A stretch of DNA of 12,179 nt from Clostridia bacterium (GTDB lineage Bacteria; UBA6262; WVXT01; JAUXBS01): contig JAUXDE010000051.1 in the NCBI GenBank assembly GCA_030618495.1, positions 1 to 12,179 on the forward strand. Direction: 5' to 3'. Shown here one piece after another: positions 1 to 11,867 of the stretch. The translations under genes and the position numbers were made by a program. Each line of letters opens with the position of its first letter. The first letter of the stretch is position 1. The notes under the pieces were generated by a model, which ran no database searches, was not told the DNA's origin, and saw nothing but the letters and a program-made list of their open reading frames with translations.

Positions 1-475
1 TATCCTCTGATTCATTGATTTTCCTATACTCAATGAGAGACCTTTCTCTATTACCTAACTGCTCATAAATCCTTCCTAAGTATATGTGAATCATTTTTTG
101 TTCCCACGGAGAAAACCTGTACTTCCTTGTCATCTGGGATTTCATTGTCTGTCCAACAAAACCTTCTAAATGCTCATTGTATGTTACACACATTTCCAAA
201 ATTCTTGCTGCTTCCTTATAATCATGCGCATAACAAGCTGCCACACCATGATTCCCTAGGTGAATACCCCGGCATACGAGTTTCTTTCTTGCCTTTTTGG
301 TTTTTGGTTTAGCCGGGTCCCCATCAGTTAAATGACTGTATTCTTTCTGCGCGGTCTTATAATCCCCCTTGGAATATGCTGTGTTTGCCAGGTTATAATG
401 ATTTACGGCGCACCCGGACAACAAGCCAAATGCCAGTACAAGAATTAATGCAAACACCCAGTTTTTCTTTTTCAT
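1..475 (-). CDS. Lipoprotein with helical repeats, partner of LpoB-like protein (3' end outside window)
   Basis: The frame is open for 158 codons from the ATG at 473-475 to the window edge, so the C-terminus is missing. Residues 1-22 form a lipoprotein signal: KKKN at the N-terminus, a hydrophobic stretch, then the lipobox LSGC with Cys22 as the lipidation site. The mature part is helical and TPR-like: residues after 30 read AYSKGDYKTAQKEYSHL, and later segments pair short helices (ACYAHDYKEAARILEM; IYLGRIYEQLGNRERSLIEY). An AAGGAG ribosome site lies 9 bases upstream of the ATG, and the gene starts 17 bases after the LpoB-like gene, so the two form one operon. Lipoproteins of the COG3014 type commonly sit beside lpoB-like genes; I infer membership of that family from pattern and context. 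Its molecular role is not known to me. It probably faces the periplasm from the outer membrane. Confidence 0.82.
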   Translation of the reverse strand, partial: MKKKNWVFALILVLAFGLLSGCAVNHYNLANTAYSKGDYKTAQKEYSHLTDGDPAKPKTKKARKKLVCRGIHLGNHGVAACYAHDYKEAARILEMCVTYNEHLEGFVGQTMKSQMTRKYRFSPWEQKMIHIYLGRIYEQLGNRERSLIEYRKINESED

Positions 476-492
476 AAAATTATTCTCCTTGT

Positions 493-1218
493 TTATTCAA
501 GAAACCCCCTGCTTTTCTGGGAATACCAGTCCCTGGCACCCATCCAGACAATTATGGACGTTTTAACTTCCAGCATTTTCAAAGACAGGCGGTAATAGGA
601 ACGGCGCTTGGTCTTTGAAAAAGTTTCCTGTTTCTTTTCAATGGAAGAAATATCGCCGTAAACAAAGAAGTCAACTCCGTGCATCTTGCCCATTTCGCCT
701 ATTTTTTCCGTAAGCCCGCTTAACTGGAATTTCAGTTCTTCTATTAACAACTCGCGCTTGTTCGGCGCCACGAAGACAGCTTTTCCGTTATTCAGCATTA
801 ACTCCATGATTTTGTCCGCGATGATATCCGTATTAAAATACTCGGAAGTCTTGTTTTCAATATGAAGGAAGGCAATGACGGGAGGTCTTTCGGTTTTCAA
901 GTAGGTATTGACGCTCAAATCCTGGTACAGGGCATAGGCTATTCTCGAAAGGTCTTCCCCCCCCACCTGCTCGTCCATCTTTTTAAGTATTATATCCCCC
1001 TCGGAACTGTTGCTGACATGAGTAACCCTCTCCGCGTTTATTGTCTGTTCCCTCATACTGCTCCCCGCGGTAATAACATATTCTTTTTTGTCGGAATTGT
1101 AATTAACGGTCTTTGCGCGCAGGGCTGTCCCGTCCTTCAGGTGGACGTACTGAACAGTGGCGCAGGACAGATTTACCAGAACCAGGGGCAGCGCCGCCCA
1201 CATTAAAAGTTTTTTCAT
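493..1218 (-). CDS. lpoB: LpoB-like lipoprotein (putative penicillin-binding protein activator)
   Basis: This 241-residue protein has an N-terminal secretion signal ending at NLSC (Cys19). The Asn at -3 makes the lipobox imperfect, but lipidation is still likely. Residues about 22-70 form a small beta-rich module of the 'HLKDGT...' type often found on envelope proteins. Residues about 85-241 match the LpoB/DUF-type fold: PPVIAFLHIENKTSEYFNT, then DIIADKIMELMLNNGKAVFV, and the GVDFFVYGDISS strand near 185. In Enterobacteria LpoB is an outer-membrane lipoprotein that stimulates the class A penicillin-binding protein PBP1B; the partner is not in this window, so the role here is inferred. The ATG at 1216-1218 follows AAGGAA and a strong promoter at 1252-1280. 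It is the first gene of a two-gene lipoprotein operon. The extra N-terminal module is absent from the short E. coli LpoB, so it may be a lineage-specific variant. Confidence 0.8.
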   Translation of the reverse strand: MKKLLMWAALPLVLVNLSCATVQYVHLKDGTALRAKTVNYNSDKKEYVITAGSSMREQTINAERVTHVSNSSEGDIILKKMDEQVGGEDLSRIAYALYQDLSVNTYLKTERPPVIAFLHIENKTSEYFNTDIIADKIMELMLNNGKAVFVAPNKRELLIEELKFQLSGLTEKIGEMGKMHGVDFFVYGDISSIEKKQETFSKTKRRSYYRLSLKMLEVKTSIIVWMGARDWYSQKSRGFLE

Positions 1219-1251
1219 ATTTCCTTTTTTTAGCCTTCGGTGTTATTTAGC

Positions 1252-1280
1252 ATATTATATTTTTCATAGTAAAATGTCAA
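1252..1280 (-). promoter_or_regulatory. Sigma70-type promoter for the lipoprotein operon
   Basis: Read on the minus strand: -35 box TTGACA (1275-1280), a 17-base spacer, and -10 box TAATAT (1252-1257). The expected start of transcription near 1245 leaves a leader of about 27 bases to the ATG at 1218, with AAGGAA in it. Box match, spacing and position all agree. Confidence 0.85.
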
Positions 1281-1309
1281 GTTTTTTGTCTGAATCATTT
1301 GCGTCGTTT

Positions 1310-1338
1310 TTGATTTACAGATAAATTTATGATATACT
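1310..1338 (+). promoter_or_regulatory. Candidate extended -10 promoter for the O-antigen ligase gene
   Basis: TTGATT (1310-1315), a 17-base spacer, and TATACT (1333-1338) preceded by TG (1330-1331). It lies back to back with the promoter of the divergent lipoprotein operon. The predicted transcript start near 1345 falls only about 10 bases before the TTG start codon at 1355 and inside the AGGG ribosome site (1344-1347). Either the mRNA has an extremely short leader, or translation starts further down, or another promoter is used. Confidence 0.55.
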
Positions 1339-1354
1339 ACTACAGGGCAAAATA

Positions 1355-3076
1355 TTGGATAAAAAAAATAACAGTTTAATCAAATCAGGCATCATGTTTT
1401 TAGCCATCGCGCTGCCGCTGGTATTCCTGCCGGCAACCAGGGATACGTTCCTTATCAAGCATACCATACTACAAACGGTAATACCGTTTCTGCTGATAGC
1501 CTCAGTCATTAAAAACGTACAACTCCTGAAGGCAAGACTGCTAATCCCCATCCTTATCTTCACGGCAGTCCTGCTGCTTTCGATGGTAAACACTTCAAAC
1601 ACCGCGGTAAGCGTCAATGCCCTGGTTGACAAACTGGTATTTATGGGCGTCTACCTTATCATAGCAAGCCGGAATAATGAGAAGTTCCGTTCAAAATTCA
1701 TAAACTACTCGCTTGTCGCGGGCTTTTTCGTATGCCTGTACGGCATGATACAGTCAACAGGTCTGGATTTCATCGTTTGGGCCCGGACCTTCGGGGGAAG
1801 GCTCTCCTCGTCACTTGGCAACCCCAACTTCTTTTCGGGTTACCTTGTTGCCCTCATCCCCTTAAGCCTTGCCTCGGCGATAAAGACATCAAAAAGCTTA
1901 AAAAAACTGCTCCTGTCCGTAAATACGGTGTTCCTGATAGTCTGCCTCGTACTCACAAAGACCCGCGGGAGCTGGATTGCCTTTATAATCTCCATGCTGG
2001 TGTTCCTTGCGCTGGCGGGAAAAATCCTCGCAAAAAGCGCAAATATAAAACGCCTCTATATTATCTCCGCCGCCGTAATGGTTTTCATTTCCTCTTACAT
2101 AGTCCTTTCCGACAATGATTATACAAGGAAGTTCAAGTCAATATTCAACCCCAACATAGCCTCAATATCCGAAAGGGTATTCAAATGGCGAACGGCGCAG
2201 GAAATGATAAAGGACCATCCCCTTATAGGCGTGGGCATAGGCGCGGTAAAGGTCAACTACGCCCTTTCCCAGGCGGAGGCAAGAAAGAAAATGAGAATAG
2301 TGCTCAGGGGAACGAGCGAAAGCCAGGTTCACAACGAATACCTGCAGATATGCGCTGAAGCCGGCGCGCTGGGCCTTGCCGCCTTCCTGGGAATCATAGT
2401 GGTATTTTTTGCGGGTGTCTTCAGGCGCCGGGCGCCTGACTCCCAGCCGTGGATTACCGCGGGCATAACAGCGGCGGTAACCGGAATCCTGGTTGACAGC
2501 ATACCCAACTTCCCCCTTCATATAGTCCCCACGGGTTTCCTGTTCTGGTCATACCTGGGATTGATGGAAACACCGGGGACAGAAGACCATAAACAGGCAA
2601 AACAGAAGATAGCTTCAACCGGAAATACTGTACAGGTAGTATATAAAACTGCTATAATCCTTGTTATAATACTGCTATGGCTCAAGACCGTACCCAATGA
2701 GTTTATAGCCGATTTGCGCAGGAGTAACGGCGACATGGCAAGTAAGACAAAGAACTGGAAAAAAGCGGCAGCGGAATACGAAAAGGCCCACCGGCTAAGC
2801 CCCGTAAACGGGCGTATCTGCTATGACCTGGGCATGGCTTACGTTCGGCTTAATGACTATGACAGCGCCATCCGCTCTTTCAAGGAATCAATAAGGATAC
2901 GAAATTACGGCGAGGTGTACAACGACCTTGCGAACTGTTATTACCTTAAGGACATGAAAAGGGAAGCCGTAAAGAACTGGGAGACAGCCGTCTATCTCGG
3001 CCTCCCTGACCCGGATGACCAGGATAAAGTCATAAAAAACCTTAACATTTTAAAATCCCGCATGAAGGAGCAGTAA
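1355..3076 (+). CDS. O-antigen ligase/polymerase-like membrane protein with C-terminal TPR domain
   Basis: A 573-residue protein with about a dozen membrane segments over residues 12-450, followed by a soluble tail. Family hallmarks of the Wzy_C/O-antigen ligase group are visible: GRLSSSLGNPNFFSGY (149-163), TRGSWIAF (203-210), the block ERVFKWRTAQEM (273-284) and VHNEYLQ with His326 in a large extracytoplasmic loop. Members join or polymerise undecaprenyl-linked glycans at the periplasmic face of the inner membrane. Residues 460-570 hold TPR-like helix pairs (NWKKAAAEYEKAHRLSP; DYDSAIRSFKESIRI), which suggest a protein partner. The TTG start at 1355 has AGGG 7 bases upstream; ATG at codon 14 (1394) is an alternative but would remove the charged N-terminal tail. 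The stop overlaps the next start as TAATG. Whether it ligates O-antigen to lipid A, polymerises a repeat unit or glycosylates protein cannot be told from sequence. Confidence 0.88.
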   Translation: MDKKNNSLIKSGIMFLAIALPLVFLPATRDTFLIKHTILQTVIPFLLIASVIKNVQLLKARLLIPILIFTAVLLLSMVNTSNTAVSVNALVDKLVFMGVYLIIASRNNEKFRSKFINYSLVAGFFVCLYGMIQSTGLDFIVWARTFGGRLSSSLGNPNFFSGYLVALIPLSLASAIKTSKSLKKLLLSVNTVFLIVCLVLTKTRGSWIAFIISMLVFLALAGKILAKSANIKRLYIISAAVMVFISSYIVLSDNDYTRKFKSIFNPNIASISERVFKWRTAQEMIKDHPLIGVGIGAVKVNYALSQAEARKKMRIVLRGTSESQVHNEYLQICAEAGALGLAAFLGIIVVFFAGVFRRRAPDSQPWITAGITAAVTGILVDSIPNFPLHIVPTGFLFWSYLGLMETPGTEDHKQAKQKIASTGNTVQVVYKTAIILVIILLWLKTVPNEFIADLRRSNGDMASKTKNWKKAAAEYEKAHRLSPVNGRICYDLGMAYVRLNDYDSAIRSFKESIRIRNYGEVYNDLANCYYLKDMKREAVKNWETAVYLGLPDPDDQDKVIKNLNILKSRMKEQ

Positions 3077-4500
3077 TGTTCTGGATAGTTTTTGGAATAA
3101 TCACCCTGGTAAAATTTGTAACCATCATATTCCTTGGGCCCGGTGATGACGAGGCCTACTTCTGGGCATGCAGTAAAAACCTTGAGCTTGCTTACTTCGA
3201 CCATCCCCCCATGGTTGCCTACGTGATAAAAGTGTTCACATCAATATTCGGGAACAACCCCTTTGCCATACATGCCGGAGCGCTGGTATTAACGTCATGT
3301 TCCATACTTATCGCATACAAGTGGCTCAGGGAAATGTTCTCTGAAGAGGAAACCCTCTGGGGAAGCCTTCTCTTCATGTTCGCACCCGTCATATTCATGG
3401 GCGGGGTAATAATGGCTCCCGACGCCCCGCTGGCGCTGTTCTGGACACTCTCCCTTTACCTGCTCTACAGGGCGCTTAAGGAACAGAAGAACCTGTACTG
3501 GTACCTTACGGGCATATCAATGGGACTGGCTTCATTAAGCAAGTATAACGGCTTCATCCTTCCCGTTATGATGTTCCTCTATTTAATATTATCAAAAAAC
3601 CACCGCCCCTTCCTGAAAAAAAAGGAACCGTACATAACACTGCTATTATCAATCATAGTATTCCTACCCGTTATCATATGGAACGCGCAGAACGACTGGG
3701 TATCGTTTCACTTCCAGTTCGTCGGCCGCCACAGGTTCTCCCTTTCCATAGTGAAGTTCCTGTTATTCGTGGCCTCACAGATGCTCTACCTTGCGCCTAC
3801 GGGCTTTATTATCGCAATGTGCGGGTTTACGGGACTGGCAAGGTTGTGGAAAAAGAAGTGGGAATACCGCTATCTCTTCCTGATGTCCTTCCCCGTAATA
3901 GCGCTGTTTGCGGCAAACAGCCTTTACTCCCATAAATTTTTGCCGCACTGGCCCGCGCTCGGCTATATCGGGGGCTTCATGGGGGCAGCGGCAGCAATAA
4001 AACTCACCGGGAAATACAAACTACTGTTAAAACTCAACCTTGCGGTTTGTTCCATACTGATTGCCTTCCTTATAGTATCAAGTTTCCACCCGGTAATCCC
4101 GCTTGCGCCAAACGCAAGGGAAAAGGACTTCACCAATGACTTCTACGGCTGGGATTTGTTAAAAAAGGAAGTTGAAACGCTGACAGAATCACTCCCCGAC
4201 GATATCTTCTACCTCGCGGAAAGGTACCAGACGGGGGCGCAGTTCAGCCTTGCTACTAACAAACCGGTATGGGTTAAAAGAAAAGGAAGGACTACCGGTT
4301 ACGACTTCTGGCAGGATATCGACAGCCGTAAAGGAATGGACGCCCTTTATTTCACCCACTCAAGATTATTCGCAAACCCCAAACACATCTACAGGTTCAG
4401 GAGTATTAAACTTCTCAAGGAAATACCGGTCAAAAGAGCCGGTATAAAGGTAAGGACTCTTTATCTTTATTTCTGCAGTGACTTCCGGGGAACCAAATAG
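3076..4500 (+). CDS. GT39-family (ArnT/PMT-like) polyprenyl-phosphate sugar transferase
   Basis: A 474-residue integral membrane protein with about ten hydrophobic segments. The first extracytoplasmic loop carries the family signature: GPGDDEAYFW (21-30, acidic residues D24, D25, E26, expected catalytic/metal site) and YFDHPPMVAY (40-49). A second hallmark, MAPDAPLA, lies at 113-120. Members move a sugar from a polyprenyl-phosphate donor to a lipid or protein acceptor on the periplasmic side. The start ATG shares one base with the upstream stop and is preceded by GAAGGAG (3064-3070), so translation is coupled to the O-antigen ligase-like gene. Together they suggest a surface glycan or glycoprotein step. 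Acceptor and sugar cannot be read from sequence. Residues 355-474 form a soluble C-terminal domain, as in related proteins. Confidence 0.87.
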   Translation: MFWIVFGIITLVKFVTIIFLGPGDDEAYFWACSKNLELAYFDHPPMVAYVIKVFTSIFGNNPFAIHAGALVLTSCSILIAYKWLREMFSEEETLWGSLLFMFAPVIFMGGVIMAPDAPLALFWTLSLYLLYRALKEQKNLYWYLTGISMGLASLSKYNGFILPVMMFLYLILSKNHRPFLKKKEPYITLLLSIIVFLPVIIWNAQNDWVSFHFQFVGRHRFSLSIVKFLLFVASQMLYLAPTGFIIAMCGFTGLARLWKKKWEYRYLFLMSFPVIALFAANSLYSHKFLPHWPALGYIGGFMGAAAAIKLTGKYKLLLKLNLAVCSILIAFLIVSSFHPVIPLAPNAREKDFTNDFYGWDLLKKEVETLTESLPDDIFYLAERYQTGAQFSLATNKPVWVKRKGRTTGYDFWQDIDSRKGMDALYFTHSRLFANPKHIYRFRSIKLLKEIPVKRAGIKVRTLYLYFCSDFRGTK

Positions 4501-4674: not shown

Positions 4675-6603
4675 ATGAAAAATGTATTTGCAACACTTCT
4701 TTTTTCACTCACGCTTTTCTTCCTTCTTATTTCCGTTTCAAACGCTGATGTCCTGACAATCAGGCCGAATGCTGCAGGGATAAATTCAGGCTGGATAGGT
4801 ACTCCGCTCAATACATACGAAGACGTGGACGAAGCGGCGCAAAACGGAGATGCTGACTATTTTTGTGTAAGTGCCAAAAATGCTGTACATAGTTTTAGTA
4901 TGGTTGACCACACAACTGAAACAGGCACTATAAGTAATGTGAGAGTTATAATCTGGGCAAAACATACAGTCCCATCAGAAGGTGTAATTATACAGATTGT
5001 TAGCGGTTCTGCCTATGATGGAGCAACAATTGATCCTCTTACTGCGACTTATGTGGAGCATACCAGTGACTGGGCGACGGATCCTGCCGGAGGCGACTGG
5101 ACATGGACCGATATAGATAATATAGAGGCAGGAATCAAGTCAATTGGTGCAGGTGCTTTTTCACCAGAGGATAGGGTTACCCAGGTATACGTTGAAGTAA
5201 CCTACGCGACTAATAATGCCCCTAACGCTCCGGTTACCCCGGAATGCGACGGCAAGGCAAGCCCCGCAATCACAACCGAAACAGCCCCGGATTTTACCTG
5301 GGTGTTTTCCGACCAGGACGGCGGCGATTCACAATCGGCGTATGCTGTTCTCGTATCAACGAGCAGTACCAGCCTTGACAGTAATACCGGCGAAATGTGG
5401 GATACGCTCAAGTATGTTTCAATAGACTCTTCGGCGGCGTACGGCGGTTCCGCGTTGTCCGAAGATACAACTTATTACTGGAAGGTGAAGACATGGGATG
5501 CCGGTGATTCGTCCGGGCCGTACTGCGGAACGCAGTTGTTTTTTCTGCAGGCAGGCTCAGGCCCGGCAGTGCCGACAGGCCTTGTGGCTACAGCAAGCAC
5601 AAAACACAGCATCAGTTTATCGTGGCAGGCGGACGAGAACGTAAGGTACGCAATAGAGAAGTCCTCCAACAGTACCGACTTCAGCATGATAGAACAATGG
5701 AGTGATAACATAACAAACAACGCTTATACTGCAATGAACCTGAAAGCGGGTTCATCCTACTGGTTCAAGGTTTACGGTTACAATCAATCCGAGGTTATGT
5801 CAGGCCCTTCCACACCTGCCGTGAAAATGACGAAATCCGTTGCGGTTGTCATCAGTTCTTCAGCGTACACGAAATGCGGAAACGTAAATGATTGCGAAGT
5901 CCTCATTTCAAGCGGGACATTCCAGGAAGATGTTTATATTGAAATCGATACCAACCCCTCTTTAGGCGGCAATATTGGAATAGCCAATGGCAAACTGAAT
6001 AAGTTCCGTTACATGGAAGGTTCAATAACGGATATTAACATCTATAATATGTATGGCTCAAAGATGGAGATAAACGATTTCCAAAACAGTATATATTTAA
6101 GGATTTATTACAATATAACGGAAGTGGCTAATGCGGGCATAGACGAACAGTCCTTGAGGATTTACACCTTAAACGATGAACGGGAACAGTGGGTTAAAGT
6201 GGGCGGGGTTCACAATGTGAATGAGACCGGCCATTTTGTGGAGGTTCCTGTTGAGCATTTCTCCGTATTTTCCCTGGTAGGGGGCGGAGAAAGTTTGGAA
6301 TTGGTGAATATGGCAAATTACCCGAATCCTTTTTCCGATGAAACTGTATTCATCTTTGAAATCACAAAAAGGGCAAATATTAAACTGCAGATTTTCACTA
6401 CTTCAGGACGGTTGCTAATGACATTTGAAGAACCGGATATGGATCCGGGATACAACACGATTCCTGACACAGGAGGAGGCTGGAACGGCACGGATGTTAA
6501 CGGCAGCAACATTGCATCAGGACTGTACTTCTGGAAGTTAACAGCCACTCCGGAGGGAGGAACACCTGTCAGTGGGACAGGAAAGCTAACGATAATAAGA
6601 TAA
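4675..6603 (+). CDS. Secreted multi-domain beta protein with FN3-like and FlgD-like C-terminal domains
   Basis: A 642-residue exported protein. A signal peptide covers residues 1-24 (hydrophobic core FATLLFSLTLFFLLISV, cut after SNA). Residues 25-177 look like a jelly-roll or carbohydrate-binding type beta domain (DWTWTDIDNIEAGI near 141-154, TQVYVEVTY at 169-177). Residues 180-292 are Ig/FN3-like with TTYYWKVKTWD at 265-275. Residues 298-388 are a clearer FN3 domain (VPTGLVATAS...ISLSWQ...YWFKVYGYN). Residues 390-535 form a beta-rich module of no family I recognise. Residues 545-642 match the FlgD-like/T9SS type A tail: NYPNPFSDET, VNGSNIASGLYFWKL and a final KLTIIR. Such tails serve surface sorting or attachment in FCB and related phyla. 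No catalytic motif is visible, so adhesion or glycan binding is more likely than enzymatic activity. It is monocistronic, with its own promoter and terminator. Confidence 0.85.
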   Translation: MKNVFATLLFSLTLFFLLISVSNADVLTIRPNAAGINSGWIGTPLNTYEDVDEAAQNGDADYFCVSAKNAVHSFSMVDHTTETGTISNVRVIIWAKHTVPSEGVIIQIVSGSAYDGATIDPLTATYVEHTSDWATDPAGGDWTWTDIDNIEAGIKSIGAGAFSPEDRVTQVYVEVTYATNNAPNAPVTPECDGKASPAITTETAPDFTWVFSDQDGGDSQSAYAVLVSTSSTSLDSNTGEMWDTLKYVSIDSSAAYGGSALSEDTTYYWKVKTWDAGDSSGPYCGTQLFFLQAGSGPAVPTGLVATASTKHSISLSWQADENVRYAIEKSSNSTDFSMIEQWSDNITNNAYTAMNLKAGSSYWFKVYGYNQSEVMSGPSTPAVKMTKSVAVVISSSAYTKCGNVNDCEVLISSGTFQEDVYIEIDTNPSLGGNIGIANGKLNKFRYMEGSITDINIYNMYGSKMEINDFQNSIYLRIYYNITEVANAGIDEQSLRIYTLNDEREQWVKVGGVHNVNETGHFVEVPVEHFSVFSLVGGGESLELVNMANYPNPFSDETVFIFEITKRANIKLQIFTTSGRLLMTFEEPDMDPGYNTIPDTGGGWNGTDVNGSNIASGLYFWKLTATPEGGTPVSGTGKLTIIR

Positions 6604-6762: not shown

Positions 6763-7161
6763 CTATACTATCCCCCCAAGCATGGGCATTTTCAGCAGGC
6801 ATTTCACCCGGACAATAAGCTCGTCCAAGTCAAAGGGTTTAACCAAGTATTCATCAGCACCTGAATTATACCCGGCTATCTTATCGTTCTTATCGTCCAT
6901 AACTGTTAATAGCAATATGGGCAGCCTCTTGTAAACAGGGTCTTTCCTGATTGCCCTGGCAACCCTGAACCCATTCATCCTTGGCATCATTACATCAAGT
7001 ATCATCAGGTCCGGGTCCTCGTCCCGGACCTTTATCAATGCGTCCTCGCCGTTCTGAGCGGTTATAACTTCATACCCCTCGTTCATTAAAAGAAATTCCA
7101 GGGCATCGCGAACTGTCTTTTCATCATCCACTACTATTATCTTTTTCCTGTCCCTTTTCAT
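6763..7161 (-). CDS. Stand-alone response regulator receiver domain (CheY-like)
   Basis: A single receiver domain of 132 residues with no output domain. All key residues are present: acidic pair D12/D13 (IIVVDDE), phospho-acceptor D56 (LMILDVMMP), T86 (ILLLTV) and K108 (YLVKPF). The domain would accept phosphate from a histidine kinase and act by protein contact; neither kinase nor target is encoded nearby. The ATG at 7159-7161 is chosen because GGGAGG (7168-7173) lies 6 bases upstream and the promoter -10 box lies at 7187-7192. The frame runs open to an ATG at 7215, but that start would fall on the -35 box and add 18 residues before the domain. It converges with the upstream secreted protein gene across a shared terminator. 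Confidence 0.93.
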   Translation of the reverse strand: MKRDRKKIIVVDDEKTVRDALEFLLMNEGYEVITAQNGEDALIKVRDEDPDLMILDVMMPRMNGFRVARAIRKDPVYKRLPILLLTVMDDKNDKIAGYNSGADEYLVKPFDLDELIVRVKCLLKMPMLGGIV

Positions 7162-7167
7162 TACAAT

Positions 7168-7173
7168 CCTCCC
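7168..7173 (-). promoter_or_regulatory. Ribosome binding site that fixes the receiver start
   Basis: GGGAGG on the minus strand, 6 bases before the ATG at 7161. It supports the shorter 132-residue product over the in-frame start at 7215. Confidence 0.85.
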
Positions 7174-7186
7174 ATTCTCAACATAA

Positions 7187-7215
7187 ATTATATCACGCGT
7201 TTTTAATTCTGGCAA
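7187..7215 (-). promoter_or_regulatory. Sigma70 promoter of the receiver gene, extended -10
   Basis: On the minus strand: TTGCCA (7210-7215), a 17-base spacer, and TATAAT (7187-7192) preceded by TGA. The predicted start near 7180 gives a leader of about 18 bases to the ATG at 7161. Confidence 0.82.
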
Positions 7216-7319
7216 GTAAATTAATTGTAAAGGTTTTTTAGTATAAAATAATCATTAATGAATGGTAAAAAAAACCCGGTTTCAACGTCCTTTCATATGA
7301 ACTATGGTTCAATAATAAT

Positions 7320-7348
7320 TTGTATTTTTTACATATATTTGATATATA
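7320..7348 (+). promoter_or_regulatory. Candidate promoter of the YjbQ-aldolase-AroD operon
   Basis: TTGTAT (7320-7325), a 17-base spacer, and TATATA (7343-7348) preceded by TGA as in an extended -10 element. The leader would be about 30 bases and includes AGGAG (7376-7380). The region is very AT-rich, so chance matches are more likely than for the other promoters here. Confidence 0.5.
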
Positions 7349-7385
7349 TAGATTTTGAAGATTATTATTTCCAACAGGAGAAACC

Positions 7386-7781
7386 ATGATAAAAGAACTA
7401 TCGGTAAAAACACACTCGCATTCCGAACTGGTTAACATAACGGGACTCGTTCAGGAAGCTGTTTCAGAAAGCAAGGTAACCGAAGGCGTATGTATAGTAT
7501 TCGTCCCACACACCACCGCCGGCGTTACGATAAACGAGAATGCCGACCCGGATGTCAAAAGTGATATCCTGATGAAACTGGACAAGCTGGTTGACTGGAA
7601 CGACAGGGATTACCGGCATGATGAAGGGAATTCGGCGGGGCATATAAAAGCAACCATGACGGGTTTCTCCCAATCCGTTATCATCCAAAACGGACAGCTT
7701 CAGCTGGGGACGTGGCAGCATATATACTTCGCGGAGTTTGACGGGCCGCGTTCACGCAGGGTAAAGGTAAAGATAATATGA
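7386..7781 (+). CDS. yjbQ: YjbQ/UPF0047 family protein, paralog 1
   Basis: A 131-residue protein with the usual length and full motif set of the YjbQ (COG0432) family: FVPHTTAGVTINEN (39-52), YRHDEGNSAGHIKA (76-89) and LGTWQHIYFAEFDGPRSR (107-124). Conserved His42, His78, His86 and the acidic pair Glu117/Asp119 are the likely active-site residues. The E. coli member has weak thiamine-phosphate synthase activity, but the true substrate of the family is unsettled, so I give no reaction. It is expected to be cytoplasmic and trimeric, as known structures are. AGGAG lies 5 bases before the ATG. It is the first gene of the operon and its TGA overlaps the next ATG by four bases (ATGA). A second, diverged copy lies at 9263-9679. 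Confidence 0.93.
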   Translation: MIKELSVKTHSHSELVNITGLVQEAVSESKVTEGVCIVFVPHTTAGVTINENADPDVKSDILMKLDKLVDWNDRDYRHDEGNSAGHIKATMTGFSQSVIIQNGQLQLGTWQHIYFAEFDGPRSRRVKVKII

Positions 7782-8350
7782 ACACGAAAGCATCCATGAA
7801 AGAACTGGTTAAGGTCGGCAAAAAAATGGTCTCATCGGGCCTTGCTTACTCCACCATGGGCAACCTGAGCAAAAGAACCGGCGAAGACATGATAATAAGC
7901 GCCTCGGGCTGTATGCTCGAGGAACTCGAGGGACGCCTGGTAACGGTCAGCCTTGATGAAACCGTTGAAAATGAAATGACCCGCAAAGCGTCTAACGAAA
8001 TCAACGCCCACAGGAAAATCTATGGCAAAACTGACGCGCTTGCCGTGCTTCACGGTCATTCAAGGTACGCCGTCATACAATCGCTTATTCACAAGGATAA
8101 GGAAGCGCTGGCGCCAACCGACCTTGAAAGCCTTCATTTCATGAAGGAGATTCCCATGGTAAAAGGCGATTTCGGAAGCAATGAACTTGCCCAGAACGTA
8201 TCAAGCGCCCTGGTAAAACACAAAGGAGTAATAGTCCGCGGCCACGGCAGTTTTGCCCGCGGAAAAACGCCCTGGGAAGCGCTCACGATACTTCACGTTA
8301 TAGAGAACTCAAGTTTTATTAACTACATGATAGAACTATCAAGGAAATAA
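7778..8350 (+). CDS. Class II aldolase/adducin family protein (FucA-like)
   Basis: A 190-residue protein that covers the whole class II aldolase fold. Metal and catalytic residues line up with L-fuculose-1-phosphate aldolase almost number for number: MGNLSKR (27-33), SASG (41-44), an ASNEINAH segment with Glu74 as the likely acid/base, zinc ligands His92 and His94 in VLHGHSRYA, and His156 in VRGHGSFA. The family includes sugar-phosphate aldolases, ribulose-phosphate 4-epimerases and methylthioribulose-phosphate dehydratase; sequence alone does not choose among them. No kinase or isomerase of a fucose or rhamnose pathway is present. Translation is coupled to the upstream YjbQ gene through ATGA, and no strong ribosome site of its own is visible. 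Confidence 0.9.
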   Translation: MNTKASMKELVKVGKKMVSSGLAYSTMGNLSKRTGEDMIISASGCMLEELEGRLVTVSLDETVENEMTRKASNEINAHRKIYGKTDALAVLHGHSRYAVIQSLIHKDKEALAPTDLESLHFMKEIPMVKGDFGSNELAQNVSSALVKHKGVIVRGHGSFARGKTPWEALTILHVIENSSFINYMIELSRK

Positions 8351-8359
8351 AAATATATC

Positions 8360-9250
8360 TTGAAATCAAAGAAAATTATAATAATCGCCATAGCAGTTAA
8401 CCTCGCCATCCTTGCGGTCGGTCTATGGTACTATCTTTCAATACCCGTTGATGTCAGCATTGAAATTGATTCAAGAGACTACTGCCCGGGAGATGTAGTA
8501 ATAATAAAAATCAAAACCTCAAGGGAACTTAAGGAATCCACCCTTGTTTTTAACTCCCAGAAGACGAAGTTCTTTGAAACGGGAAAAAATGACGACAGCC
8601 GGCTCTACCGCGGGTTAATAGCCGTGCCCCTGAACTGCAAGCCCGGTGAAAACGCATTGGAAATCATTATAAAATTCCCCATAGTAGGGACGCGCCGCTT
8701 TAACAGGACCGTCAATATTAAAAGCAGGAAGTTCAAAAGAACTCATATCGCGTCCCTTTCAAGGACAAACAAGATAATGAAAACACTTGCGGAGGAATCC
8801 AGGGTTGCAAGACAGCTCCGAAGTAAAATAACCCCTGAAAACCTCCGGGAGGGCAGGTTCATTATACCCGTTAAGGGAAGGTTCTCAAGCCCTTACGGCC
8901 AGGTAAGAACCTACGGCAAAAGAAGAAGAAAAGGCCGCCACCGCGGGACAGACATATCGGCGCCTAAGGGAACAAAGATTAAGGCGGCTAATAACGGCGT
9001 GGTCAGCATGGCCGCGAAGTTCCGGGGCATAGGCAACACCATCCTGGTAGACCACGGCCAGGGAATACAGTCGATTTACATGCACCTTGACAGTATAGAC
9101 GTAAAAAGAACCGATACCGTCAACAAGGGCGGCATCATAGGAACCGTCGGCTCGACGGGCCAGTCCACGGGGCCGCACCTGCACTGGGGTGTTTACGTAA
9201 ACAACGTAGCCGTTGACCCCATGCAGTTTACCGAAAAAGACATTCCTTAA
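8360..9250 (+). CDS. Membrane-anchored M23 (LytM-type) peptidase
   Basis: A 296-residue protein with a single N-terminal membrane segment (residues 5-27, IIIIAIAVNLAILAVGLWYY) and no signal cleavage site. Residues 30-125 are beta-rich and Ig-like. Residues 165-290 are a peptidase M23 domain with an intact zinc site: His194 and Asp198 in HRGTD, His273 and His275 in GPHLHW, and YMHL with His242. Active members cut peptide cross-links of peptidoglycan; this one should face the periplasm. The start is TTG at 8360: the upstream in-frame TAA (8348-8350) leaves no ATG or GTG before it, and the next Met is inside the protein. No good ribosome site is present; AAGGAA lies 13 bases away, so translation probably depends on the aldolase gene. 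A cell-wall enzyme among metabolic genes is unusual. Confidence 0.9.
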   Translation: MKSKKIIIIAIAVNLAILAVGLWYYLSIPVDVSIEIDSRDYCPGDVVIIKIKTSRELKESTLVFNSQKTKFFETGKNDDSRLYRGLIAVPLNCKPGENALEIIIKFPIVGTRRFNRTVNIKSRKFKRTHIASLSRTNKIMKTLAEESRVARQLRSKITPENLREGRFIIPVKGRFSSPYGQVRTYGKRRRKGRHRGTDISAPKGTKIKAANNGVVSMAAKFRGIGNTILVDHGQGIQSIYMHLDSIDVKRTDTVNKGGIIGTVGSTGQSTGPHLHWGVYVNNVAVDPMQFTEKDIP

Positions 9251-9252
9251 CC

Positions 9253-9257
9253 GGAGG
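9253..9257 (+). promoter_or_regulatory. Strong ribosome binding site inside the operon
   Basis: GGAGG, 5 bases before the ATG at 9263, in the 12-base gap after the peptidase gene. The aldolase, peptidase and release-factor-like genes lack a site this good and seem to rely on coupling. Confidence 0.75.
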
Positions 9258-9262
9258 ATAAA

Positions 9263-9679
9263 ATGAAATCATTAACAAAGCACTTATGGTTCAACACTCC
9301 CCACAGGAGGGATTACATCAACATAACGGGCGAGGTTGAACAACTCGTCAGGCAAAGCGGCGTGAAGGAAGGGCTATGCCTCGTAAACGCCATGCATATC
9401 ACCGCGGGCGTGCACATAAACGACGATGAATCGGGGCTGATACAGGATATTGACGACTGGCTGGAACAACTCGCCCCGCACGAACCGGTATCCAAATACC
9501 GCCATAACACCGGTGAAGACAACGCCGACGCCCACATAAAGAGGAGCATAATGGGCAGGGAAGTCGTAGTGGCGATAACGGACGGCAAGCTTGACTTCGG
9601 GCCCTGGGAACAGATATTCTACGCAGAGTTTGACGGTAAGCGTAAAAAAAGGGTAATGGTAAAAATCATAGGGGAATAA
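9263..9679 (+). CDS. YjbQ/UPF0047 family protein, paralog 2
   Basis: A 138-residue second YjbQ-family member. The motifs are kept but changed: [13 protein letters not shown] (42-54) in place of the PHTTAGVTINEN form, [20 protein letters not shown] (79-98), then [19 protein letters not shown] (112-130). Conserved His45, His81, His91, Glu122 and Asp124 align with those of paralog 1. Differences lie in the first motif (MHIT for PHTT), in a two-residue insertion before the HIK motif and in the basic C-terminal motif, so the two are diverged paralogs rather than a recent copy. Subfamilies of this kind are known in bacteria and archaea, function unknown. Strong GGAGG upstream. One base separates its stop from the aroD start. 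Confidence 0.92.
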
Positions 9680-9680
9680 C

Positions 9681-10406
9681 ATGACAGTTAAATCATTGAA
9701 AAAAAGGCTGAAGGGCAGGTACTCGGTGGCAGCCCCGGTATGGGGCGGCGATATCCTTAAAACCGCAATAAAGGCAAAGACTCTGGGAGCGGACATGATT
9801 GAACTCCGCATAGACGACATGATAAAAACCGCCAGAGACACAACAACTATCGCAGGCCTTGTAAAGAAGGTTAAAAACCGGGTAAAACTTCCCATAATAG
9901 CCACCATAAGGTCTTCCCGGGAAAAGAGCGCTTCCTCCGGCTGGAAACCTGCGGATAACGAACGCCTTAAACTGTTTGAATCAATTATCAAGACAGTCGA
10001 CATGGTGGACATCGAGGGCAGTTCTGCCGGGATAAACAAAAAAGTAATACAACTTGCCCATAAAAACGCCAAACTTGCGATAGTTTCATACCATAACTTC
10101 AAAACAACGCCTTCAAACAAGTCACTTAAAAAAACCGCCCTTAAAGCGCTTGGGTTAAAGGCGGATGTCGTCAAGATTACCGTTATGACAAAGAGCGTAC
10201 AGGACGTGGGCAGGCTCATGCTCTTCTGCGAATCGTGGAAGAAGACACCGATGATAGCCATCTCAATGGGTGAACTGGGAAGTATTTCAAGGATAGTGGG
10301 CTTTGCCTACGGGTCATGTATAACCTACGGCTACGTTAACGGGCCCAACGCGCCCGGCCAGCTGAGCGTAAAGGAGTTAAGTGTATGTTCAGGTATAGAA
10401 TTGTAA
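9681..10406 (+). CDS. aroD: Type I 3-dehydroquinate dehydratase (AroD)
   Basis: A 241-residue class I dehydroquinase, which turns 3-dehydroquinate into 3-dehydroshikimate through a Schiff base in the shikimate pathway. Signature residues are present: ADMIELRID with Glu41, Arg43 and Asp45; PIIATIRSSREK (71-82); catalytic His138 in SYHNF; Schiff-base Lys165 in VVKITVMTKS; Arg204 in GSISRIVG; and APGQLSV with Gln226. The start ATG at 9681 follows AGGGG closely. The enzyme should be cytoplasmic and active. No other shikimate gene is present in this operon. The C-terminus is odd: after GQLSVKELSV it ends CSGIEL, which lies on DNA shared with the nupC remnant that begins at 10385. Family members usually continue with a short helix, so the last residues may be a product of the junction. 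Confidence 0.93.
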   Translation: MTVKSLKKRLKGRYSVAAPVWGGDILKTAIKAKTLGADMIELRIDDMIKTARDTTTIAGLVKKVKNRVKLPIIATIRSSREKSASSGWKPADNERLKLFESIIKTVDMVDIEGSSAGINKKVIQLAHKNAKLAIVSYHNFKTTPSNKSLKKTALKALGLKADVVKITVMTKSVQDVGRLMLFCESWKKTPMIAISMGELGSISRIVGFAYGSCITYGYVNGPNAPGQLSVKELSVCSGIEL

Positions 10407-10537
10407 GTTTCATAGGAGGCATCGGCGGCGTCGCCCCAAACAGGAAAAAAGACGTAGCCGCGCTGGGGCTGAAGGCGCTTGCCGGCGGTACCCTTGCGGC
10501 ATTCATGACCGCCTGCATTGCCGGGGTCCTCTTATGA
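10385..10537 (+). pseudogene. 3' remnant of a concentrative nucleoside transporter (NupC-type)
   Basis: A 50-codon frame that starts at ATG 10385, inside the last 22 bases of aroD, and ends at TGA 10535-10537. It ends in the C-terminal signature of CNT/NupC transporters: IGGIGGVAPNRKKDVAALGL, then KALAGGTLAAFMTACIAGVLL, a final transmembrane helix. In full proteins (about 400 residues) this follows a CGFxN-type segment; here only a degraded CMFRYR is left and nothing of the transporter is found upstream in any frame, because aroD occupies it. I infer a deletion that fused the end of aroD to the end of nupC. Its TGA overlaps the next ATG (ATGA), so the remnant may have been kept because it couples translation of the downstream gene. 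It could also be a small membrane protein. Homology call is from memory of the family, not a search. Confidence 0.72.
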
Positions 10538-10938
10538 GCATAAGCACGGGAAAGAAGAACAAACTCCTCACTAAGATGAAATCCCTTAAGGTATACGAAA
10601 AGGACATAGTAGAGAAGTTCATCCGCTCAAGCGGGAAGGGCGGCCAGAAAGTAAACAAATCGTCAACCTGCGTGTACTTAAAACACCTTCCAACGGGCAT
10701 TGAAGTTAAATGCCAGGAGGAACGGGAACAGGCGTTAAACCGTTTCCTTGCCAGGAGACTCCTCGTTGAGAAAATAGAAGAAATAATAAAAGGCAGGGAA
10801 AGCGCCAGAAGACAGAAGATAGAAAAACTCCGCAGGCAGAAACGCAAGAGGTCAAAAAGGGCAAAGGAAAAGATGCTGAGGCTCAAAAAAATACAGTCAG
10901 AAAAGAAACAACTCCGCAGGAAGGTGGATATAGTGTAG
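10534..10938 (+). CDS. Small GGQ-domain release-factor-like protein
   Basis: A 134-residue protein with the catalytic domain of class I release factors: RSSGKGGQKVNKSSTCVYL, with GGQ at residues 36-38, followed by TGIEVKCQEEREQALNRFLA. It lacks the codon-recognition domains of RF1 and RF2, as do ArfB/YaeJ and the mitochondrial MTRFR group. Residues 90-134 are a highly basic helix (RRQKIEKLRRQKRKRSKRA), as expected for entry into the mRNA channel or rRNA binding. The likely role is peptidyl-tRNA hydrolysis on stalled ribosomes or peptidyl-tRNA drop-off. The sequence resembles the RF2-like 'TGIEVKCQ' type more than E. coli ArfB, so I do not assign a symbol. It is last in the operon, coupled by ATGA to the nupC remnant, with no good ribosome site of its own. 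Confidence 0.9.
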   Translation: MSISTGKKNKLLTKMKSLKVYEKDIVEKFIRSSGKGGQKVNKSSTCVYLKHLPTGIEVKCQEEREQALNRFLARRLLVEKIEEIIKGRESARRQKIEKLRRQKRKRSKRAKEKMLRLKKIQSEKKQLRRKVDIV

Positions 10939-10974: not shown

Positions 10975-11003
10975 TTGACAAATCAACTAACATTGTATAT
11001 AAT
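10975..11003 (+). promoter_or_regulatory. Exact-consensus promoter of the AbiE module
   Basis: TTGACA (10975-10980), a 17-base spacer, and TATAAT (10998-11003): a perfect consensus promoter. The start near 11010 gives a leader of about 36 bases, with AAAGG (11033-11037) 8 bases before the AbiEi start. Confidence 0.87.
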
Positions 11004-11045: not shown

Positions 11046-11867
11046 ATGGAAAACTTGAAAACTTTAGGAAAAAAAAGCGCAGAACTGATATATAATTTAT
11101 ACAATCAAAAGAAAACAGTTTTTACTATCAGGGATGTTTCCCGCATCACCGGATTGAACTACAACTCTGCGGGAAGATTTATTTCTGAACTAAAGAAAAG
11201 AAATATTATTTCATCCTTGAAGAAAGGAAAACATATAGTAATCCCACCCGAACTCGGTAATCCAAATAAATATATCGGTAATCCATATGTTGCGGCAAGA
11301 GAAATCATGAATTCACCGCATTACTATATTGGTTTCTACAGCGCCATGAAGTTCCGGGGCATGACAACACAACCGGTAATTAAAATGTTTGTGGTCACCC
11401 CTAAAAGACAGTTTCCCCCACAGGCTAACAATGATAAGTTCCTTTTTATACATACCGACAAACAGAACATCTGGGGTATTAGGGCGGAATGGGCAACGAA
11501 AACAGACAAGGTTAGGATTTCAGATACTGAAAGGACAATAATTGACGGGCTGGCGCATCCGGAATACTGTGGAGGCATTACCGAAGTTGCCAAGGGCATA
11601 TGGCTTATAAAGGAAAAAATAGACTTTTCTCTTCTTCTTGGCTATCTCCGGAAATACGACAAAAATGTAATAGCTAAAAGGTTAGGTTACATACTTGAAA
11701 TACTCGGTATTGCTGGAAACGGTTTTGTAAATACAATAAAAGAATTTATTAAAAACCGGTATGACATATTTGACCCGACAATCGAGAGAAAGATTATTGA
11801 TAAAAACAACTGGCGTTTAATCGATAACGTCGGCAGGGAACAAATTTTAAGGATTATCTCACACTAA
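11046..11867 (+). CDS. abiEi: AbiEi-type antitoxin/transcriptional regulator (type IV toxin-antitoxin)
   Basis: A 273-residue protein. Residues 1-65 are a winged helix-turn-helix: KKTVFTIRDVSRITGLNYNS, then ISELKKRNIISSLKKGKHIV. Residues 70-150 carry NPYVAAREIMNSPHYYIGFYSAM and the QNIWGI segment, and 158-169 show the AbiEi hallmark ISDTERTIIDGL followed by HPEYCGGITEVAKG. In AbiE modules this protein represses the operon through its N-terminal domain and counters the toxin through its C-terminal domain. The stop is two bases before the AbiEii start. An exact-consensus promoter and an inverted repeat lie just upstream. The gene is richer in AT codons (AAA, ATA, TTT) than the operon before it, which fits horizontal acquisition, but this is only my impression. 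Confidence 0.87.
   Translation: MENLKTLGKKSAELIYNLYNQKKTVFTIRDVSRITGLNYNSAGRFISELKKRNIISSLKKGKHIVIPPELGNPNKYIGNPYVAAREIMNSPHYYIGFYSAMKFRGMTTQPVIKMFVVTPKRQFPPQANNDKFLFIHTDKQNIWGIRAEWATKTDKVRISDTERTIIDGLAHPEYCGGITEVAKGIWLIKEKIDFSLLLGYLRKYDKNVIAKRLGYILEILGIAGNGFVNTIKEFIKNRYDIFDPTIERKIIDKNNWRLIDNVGREQILRIISH

Follow-up and report, generated by a model that had tools for sequence, protein, structure and literature searches.

A 50-codon frame between aroD and a release-factor-like gene (10385..10537, + strand) is very probably the operon's own nupC, reduced by one in-frame internal deletion of 350 codons. Three observations argue for this reading: a full-length gene lies between the same neighbours in the sister species, the two sequences are exactly colinear around the missing block, and both ends of the gene are kept in the stub. 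The window, by which we mean the whole 12,179-nucleotide stretch analysed, is contig C93 of a 1.69-Mb draft genome that comprises 179 contigs and is 98% complete. It was compared with the genome of a sister species (G001, 76% complete), the sole genome of the same genus and the same family in the comparison, and the 50-residue translation served as the query in a survey of 290 genomes.

Similarity of the 50-codon frame to CNT transporters

The frame opens with an ATG at 10385 and ends at 10537. An earlier note had recognised these 50 codons as a real frame but had placed the start at 10380. The translation, MFRYRIVSFIGGIGGVAPNRKKDVAALGLKALAGGTLAAFMTACIAGVLL, matches the end of two family models. 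Residues 8-47 align with the last 40 of the 213 positions of PF07662 (positions 174-213; 42.7 bits, E = 6.8e-11, cut-off 32.3), and residues 9-49 align with positions 361-401 of the 401 positions of TIGR00804 (nupC), where the score of 37 bits compares with a cut-off of 442. The C-terminal ends of solved CNT nucleoside transporter structures match the same stretch, with E values from 7.6e-9 to 1.7e-6. Judged by these profile and structure matches, the CNT/NupC similarity of the last 41 residues is unmistakably far beyond chance, and the resemblance proposed in the earlier note is thus borne out by a protein search with the 50 residues.

Among the hallmarks of the CNT/NupC family, the C-terminal Nucleos_tra2_C end is present, while the N-terminal domain, the gate domain and the length of about 400 residues are absent; a Pfam search of the 50-residue frame found neither PF01773 nor PF07670. 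Relative to complete NupC/CNT transporters (TIGR00804; PF01773-PF07670-PF07662), the stub has matching first nine and last 41 residues, with 80% identity to the G001 NupC across the last 45 aligned residues. It lacks, however, 350 internal codons, and with them the N-terminal domain, the gate domain and most of the C-terminal one, and so cannot be a transporter. The stub ends in a moderately hydrophobic helix, with a maximum Kyte-Doolittle mean of 1.97 over 19 residues.

No second or full nupC was found in the 98%-complete genome, which gave no PF01773 match and has the stub as its sole PF07662 match. Two PF07670 'Gate' matches were considered as CNT candidates and rejected, as both fall in a single 567-codon frame of contig C46 that lacks the CNT terminal domains and, by inference, probably encodes a FeoB-type protein. 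Across the survey, the CNT segment was found in 70 of the 290 genomes, the window's own included. In all 69 others the open frame around it is 332 codons or longer, compared with 65 codons in the window, and no similar 50-codon CNT stub was found in any other surveyed genome. The earlier note had also considered that the remnant might have become a small membrane protein. An open frame with a start, a ribosome site and a moderately hydrophobic terminal helix speaks for such a protein; the retained residues, however, are the end of the last two helices, typical of the family and without new features, and a comparably short CNT frame occurs in no other genome searched. A functional small membrane protein is, in our view, hardly credible.

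One missing block in a colinear operon

On contig C11 of G001, the operon runs from a UPF0047 gene through an aldolase-II gene, an M23 peptidase gene, a second UPF0047 gene and aroD to a 400-codon nupC and the release-factor-like gene, and the window has the same gene order. The G001 nupC carries PF01773, PF07670 and PF07662, all complete, and overlaps aroD by 31 bases and the release-factor-like gene by four (ATGA). G001 thus offers what a remnant of an internal deletion should have, a close relative with the intact orthologue in the same position. The start of the stub, MFRYRIVSF, corresponds to the N-terminus of the G001 NupC, MLKYRIISF, and its last 41 codons (IGGIGG...) are the C-terminal end of nupC, joined in frame to the first nine. 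The full gene in the interval between aroD and the release-factor-like gene upholds the earlier diagnosis of a decayed nupC, and neither of the two findings named in the note as refuting it came about. Two details of that diagnosis have to be revised. The stub had been described as a 3' remnant with only the last transmembrane segment, but nine N-terminal codons are kept too and both ends are present; and aroD had been said to occupy the place of nupC, but in G001 it likewise precedes the full nupC and overlaps it.

The upstream neighbour, aroD (9681..10406, + strand), is intact and encodes a type I 3-dehydroquinate dehydratase of 241 residues (PF01487, E = 6.4e-54; TIGR01093, above cut-off), 71% identical to its counterpart in the same position in G001. 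The overlaps of the stub were correctly given in the earlier note, with 22 bases shared with aroD (10385-10406) and four with the release-factor-like gene (10534-10537). The aroD stop codon (10404-10406) comes three codons earlier than in G001, whose aroD stop falls at the place of the deletion junction; since aroD stops earlier in the window, the deletion leaves it untouched. Inside aroD, eight bases before the ATG of the stub, lies the Shine-Dalgarno-like site of nupC, AAAGGAG (10370..10376, + strand); the full nupC of G001 has an identical site in the matching position. The stub thus keeps the nupC start codon, its Shine-Dalgarno site and the overlaps with both neighbours. Further upstream, the two UPF0047 genes (7386-7781 and 9263-9679), about 37% identical to each other, flank the aldolase-II and M23 peptidase genes; the second is 92% identical between the window species and G001, and its neighbours are 64-80% identical.

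By blastn, the window and G001 align in two blocks, window 6793-10416 with G001 277-3934 and window 10412-10931 with G001 4980-5499. A single block of 1,050 bp, exactly 350 of the 400 codons, is absent from the window, with colinear flanks on both sides. A breakpoint scan together with the blastn blocks places the deletion junction at 10411..10417 (+ strand), with the best breakpoint lying 27-32 bases beyond the start of the ATG. No more than a few bases at the junction could belong to either side. Near the breakpoints, the G001 sequence has no exact match longer than six bases, and that one does not lie at the junction; the junction word occurs once in the window.

In a draft of 179 contigs, such a join might have been made by the assembler, or might represent a minority variant, the true gene being of full length. 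An assembly misjoin would need a shared word of about the assembly k-mer length at both breakpoints. The shared breakpoint sequence is far shorter, which makes a genuine deletion, at little or no homology, the more likely event; in addition, no leftover N- or C-terminal piece of nupC was found elsewhere in the genome, and both flanks remain colinear onward. We regard an artefact or minority variant as highly improbable. A true deletion would have arisen on the lineage of the window, fairly recently and at little or no homology, its direction and date resting on the one comparison with G001 plus the universality of full-length CNTs. In the sister-family genomes G002-G005, nupC was not found, and in the two of them examined for gene order no aroD separates the UPF0047 gene from the release-factor-like gene, which is shorter and divergent and follows either directly or after a short zinc-ribbon-like frame; these genomes therefore do not date the deletion.

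Coupling to the release-factor-like gene

The downstream neighbour (10534..10938, + strand) encodes a release-factor-like protein of 134 residues, with an RF-1 domain containing GGQ (PF00472, E = 9.5e-24), 78% identical in G001. Its start codon and the stop codon of the stub overlap in ATGA (10534..10537, + strand), the same four-base overlap as behind the full nupC in G001. The ribosome site of this gene is weak in both genomes, reading GCCGGGGTCCTCTT before the ATG in the window and GCCGGGATCCTCAT in G001. Relatives of the release-factor-like protein that are 60-70% identical occur in drafts of Elusimicrobia, Omnitrophota, Aminicenantes and Nitrospirae, whereas within the window's own order the sister family has a shorter, much more divergent counterpart, a distribution that suggests horizontal spread of the gene. 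Beyond it, a perfect match to a sigma-70-type promoter (10975-11003; TTGACA, 17 nt, TATAAT, 12/12) immediately precedes an AbiEi-like antitoxin gene (11046-11867), which is followed by the start of a likely AbiEii partner (11870 to the contig end).

The deletion spared the ribosome site and start codon of nupC, partly since both sit within aroD and their bases are needed there. Translation of the 50 codons therefore probably continues from the Shine-Dalgarno site of nupC itself. A ribosome that terminates on the stub could then re-initiate on the release-factor-like gene through the ATGA overlap, as it could after reading the full gene. Of 14 gene pairs from Haloferax and E. coli tested for termination-reinitiation at overlaps of this kind, 13 showed it (PMC6728339), and short ORFs that solely deliver ribosomes have been discussed (PMC12548453). 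With these coupled short upstream ORFs, the stub shares the four-base overlap and the combination of a strong upstream and a weak downstream ribosome site; it differs in that its overlap is inherited from a full-length gene and in that coupling is here read from sequence. That the coupling goes on after the deletion is plausible, and we lean slightly towards it. As the comparison with G001 reads, the coupling signals are inherited from the full-length arrangement and not acquired by the remnant, since the full nupC of G001 is already followed by the ATGA overlap and the weak ribosome site; the coupling leader of the earlier note is possible, but not as a new acquisition.

A further question is whether the stub has been retained by selection, its translation serving to deliver ribosomes to the release-factor-like gene. 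A true coupling leader would fit the good Shine-Dalgarno site ahead of the stub, the weak site ahead of the release-factor-like gene, their ATGA overlap and the fact that coupling at such overlaps is common. All of these signals are, however, older than the deletion, and the start and ribosome site would have been kept anyway by virtue of sitting in aroD. The preserved frame also fits, as one of the two alternative frames across the 3' remainder stops at once. Yet chance alone puts one deletion in three in frame, and the remaining frame is open into the release-factor-like gene without a stop, so that an in-frame junction was not the sole tolerable outcome. Retention is seen in no second lineage. 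Selection for ribosome delivery is therefore possible but doubtful. We likewise judge it unlikely that the stub is under selection either as a leader that sets how much release-factor-like protein is made or as a small membrane protein derived from the transporter's last helix.

Age of the stub and loss of nupC

In the flanking genes, the two species have protein identities of 71% for aroD and 78% for the release-factor-like protein and differ by about 1 to 1.6 substitutions per silent site. Over the 41 shared nupC codons, protein identity is 85%, with dN of 0.071, dS of 0.67 and a ratio of about 0.1. Against the CNT model, the 41 residues score 41.5 bits in the window and 37.5 bits in G001, and at two conserved positions, P18 and I45 of the stub, the departure from the family is in G001 and not in the window. 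The stub thus appears to have undergone little or no decay at the residue level, and the simplest reading is a deletion that is recent relative to the split of the two species. The low ratio of amino-acid to silent change could be taken as a sign of a functional small protein, but it is expected if these codons have mostly sat in a functional nupC since the divergence. The absence of decay fits selection on the stub as well as a recent deletion and is hence no evidence for function; most likely, the stub peptide is functionless.

Because the substrate-binding and gating core is gone, nucleoside transport would have been lost at the nupC locus in the lineage of the window, as judged from what is known of the family. 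Searches for nucleoside phosphorylase and thymidine kinase as signs of a joint loss of salvage gave nothing clear, with G001 only 76% complete, and literature searches on retained pseudogene remnants gave nothing useful. The stub resembles internally deleted pseudogene remnants in bacterial operons in its one deletion, its colinear intact neighbours and its open remainder. It is neater than the usual remnants of deleted genes in having an in-frame junction and overlaps kept on both sides, but nothing essential differs. The comparison with the one sister genome shows well that the event is an ordinary, lineage-specific gene loss of a familiar type, in an operon whose genes overlap tightly. The window and G001 form a clean before-and-after pair for one gene loss, with both overlapping neighbours unharmed and the frame kept; while a single case does not decide the matter, such pairs could serve to ask whether overlaps with neighbouring genes constrain the deletions that survive.
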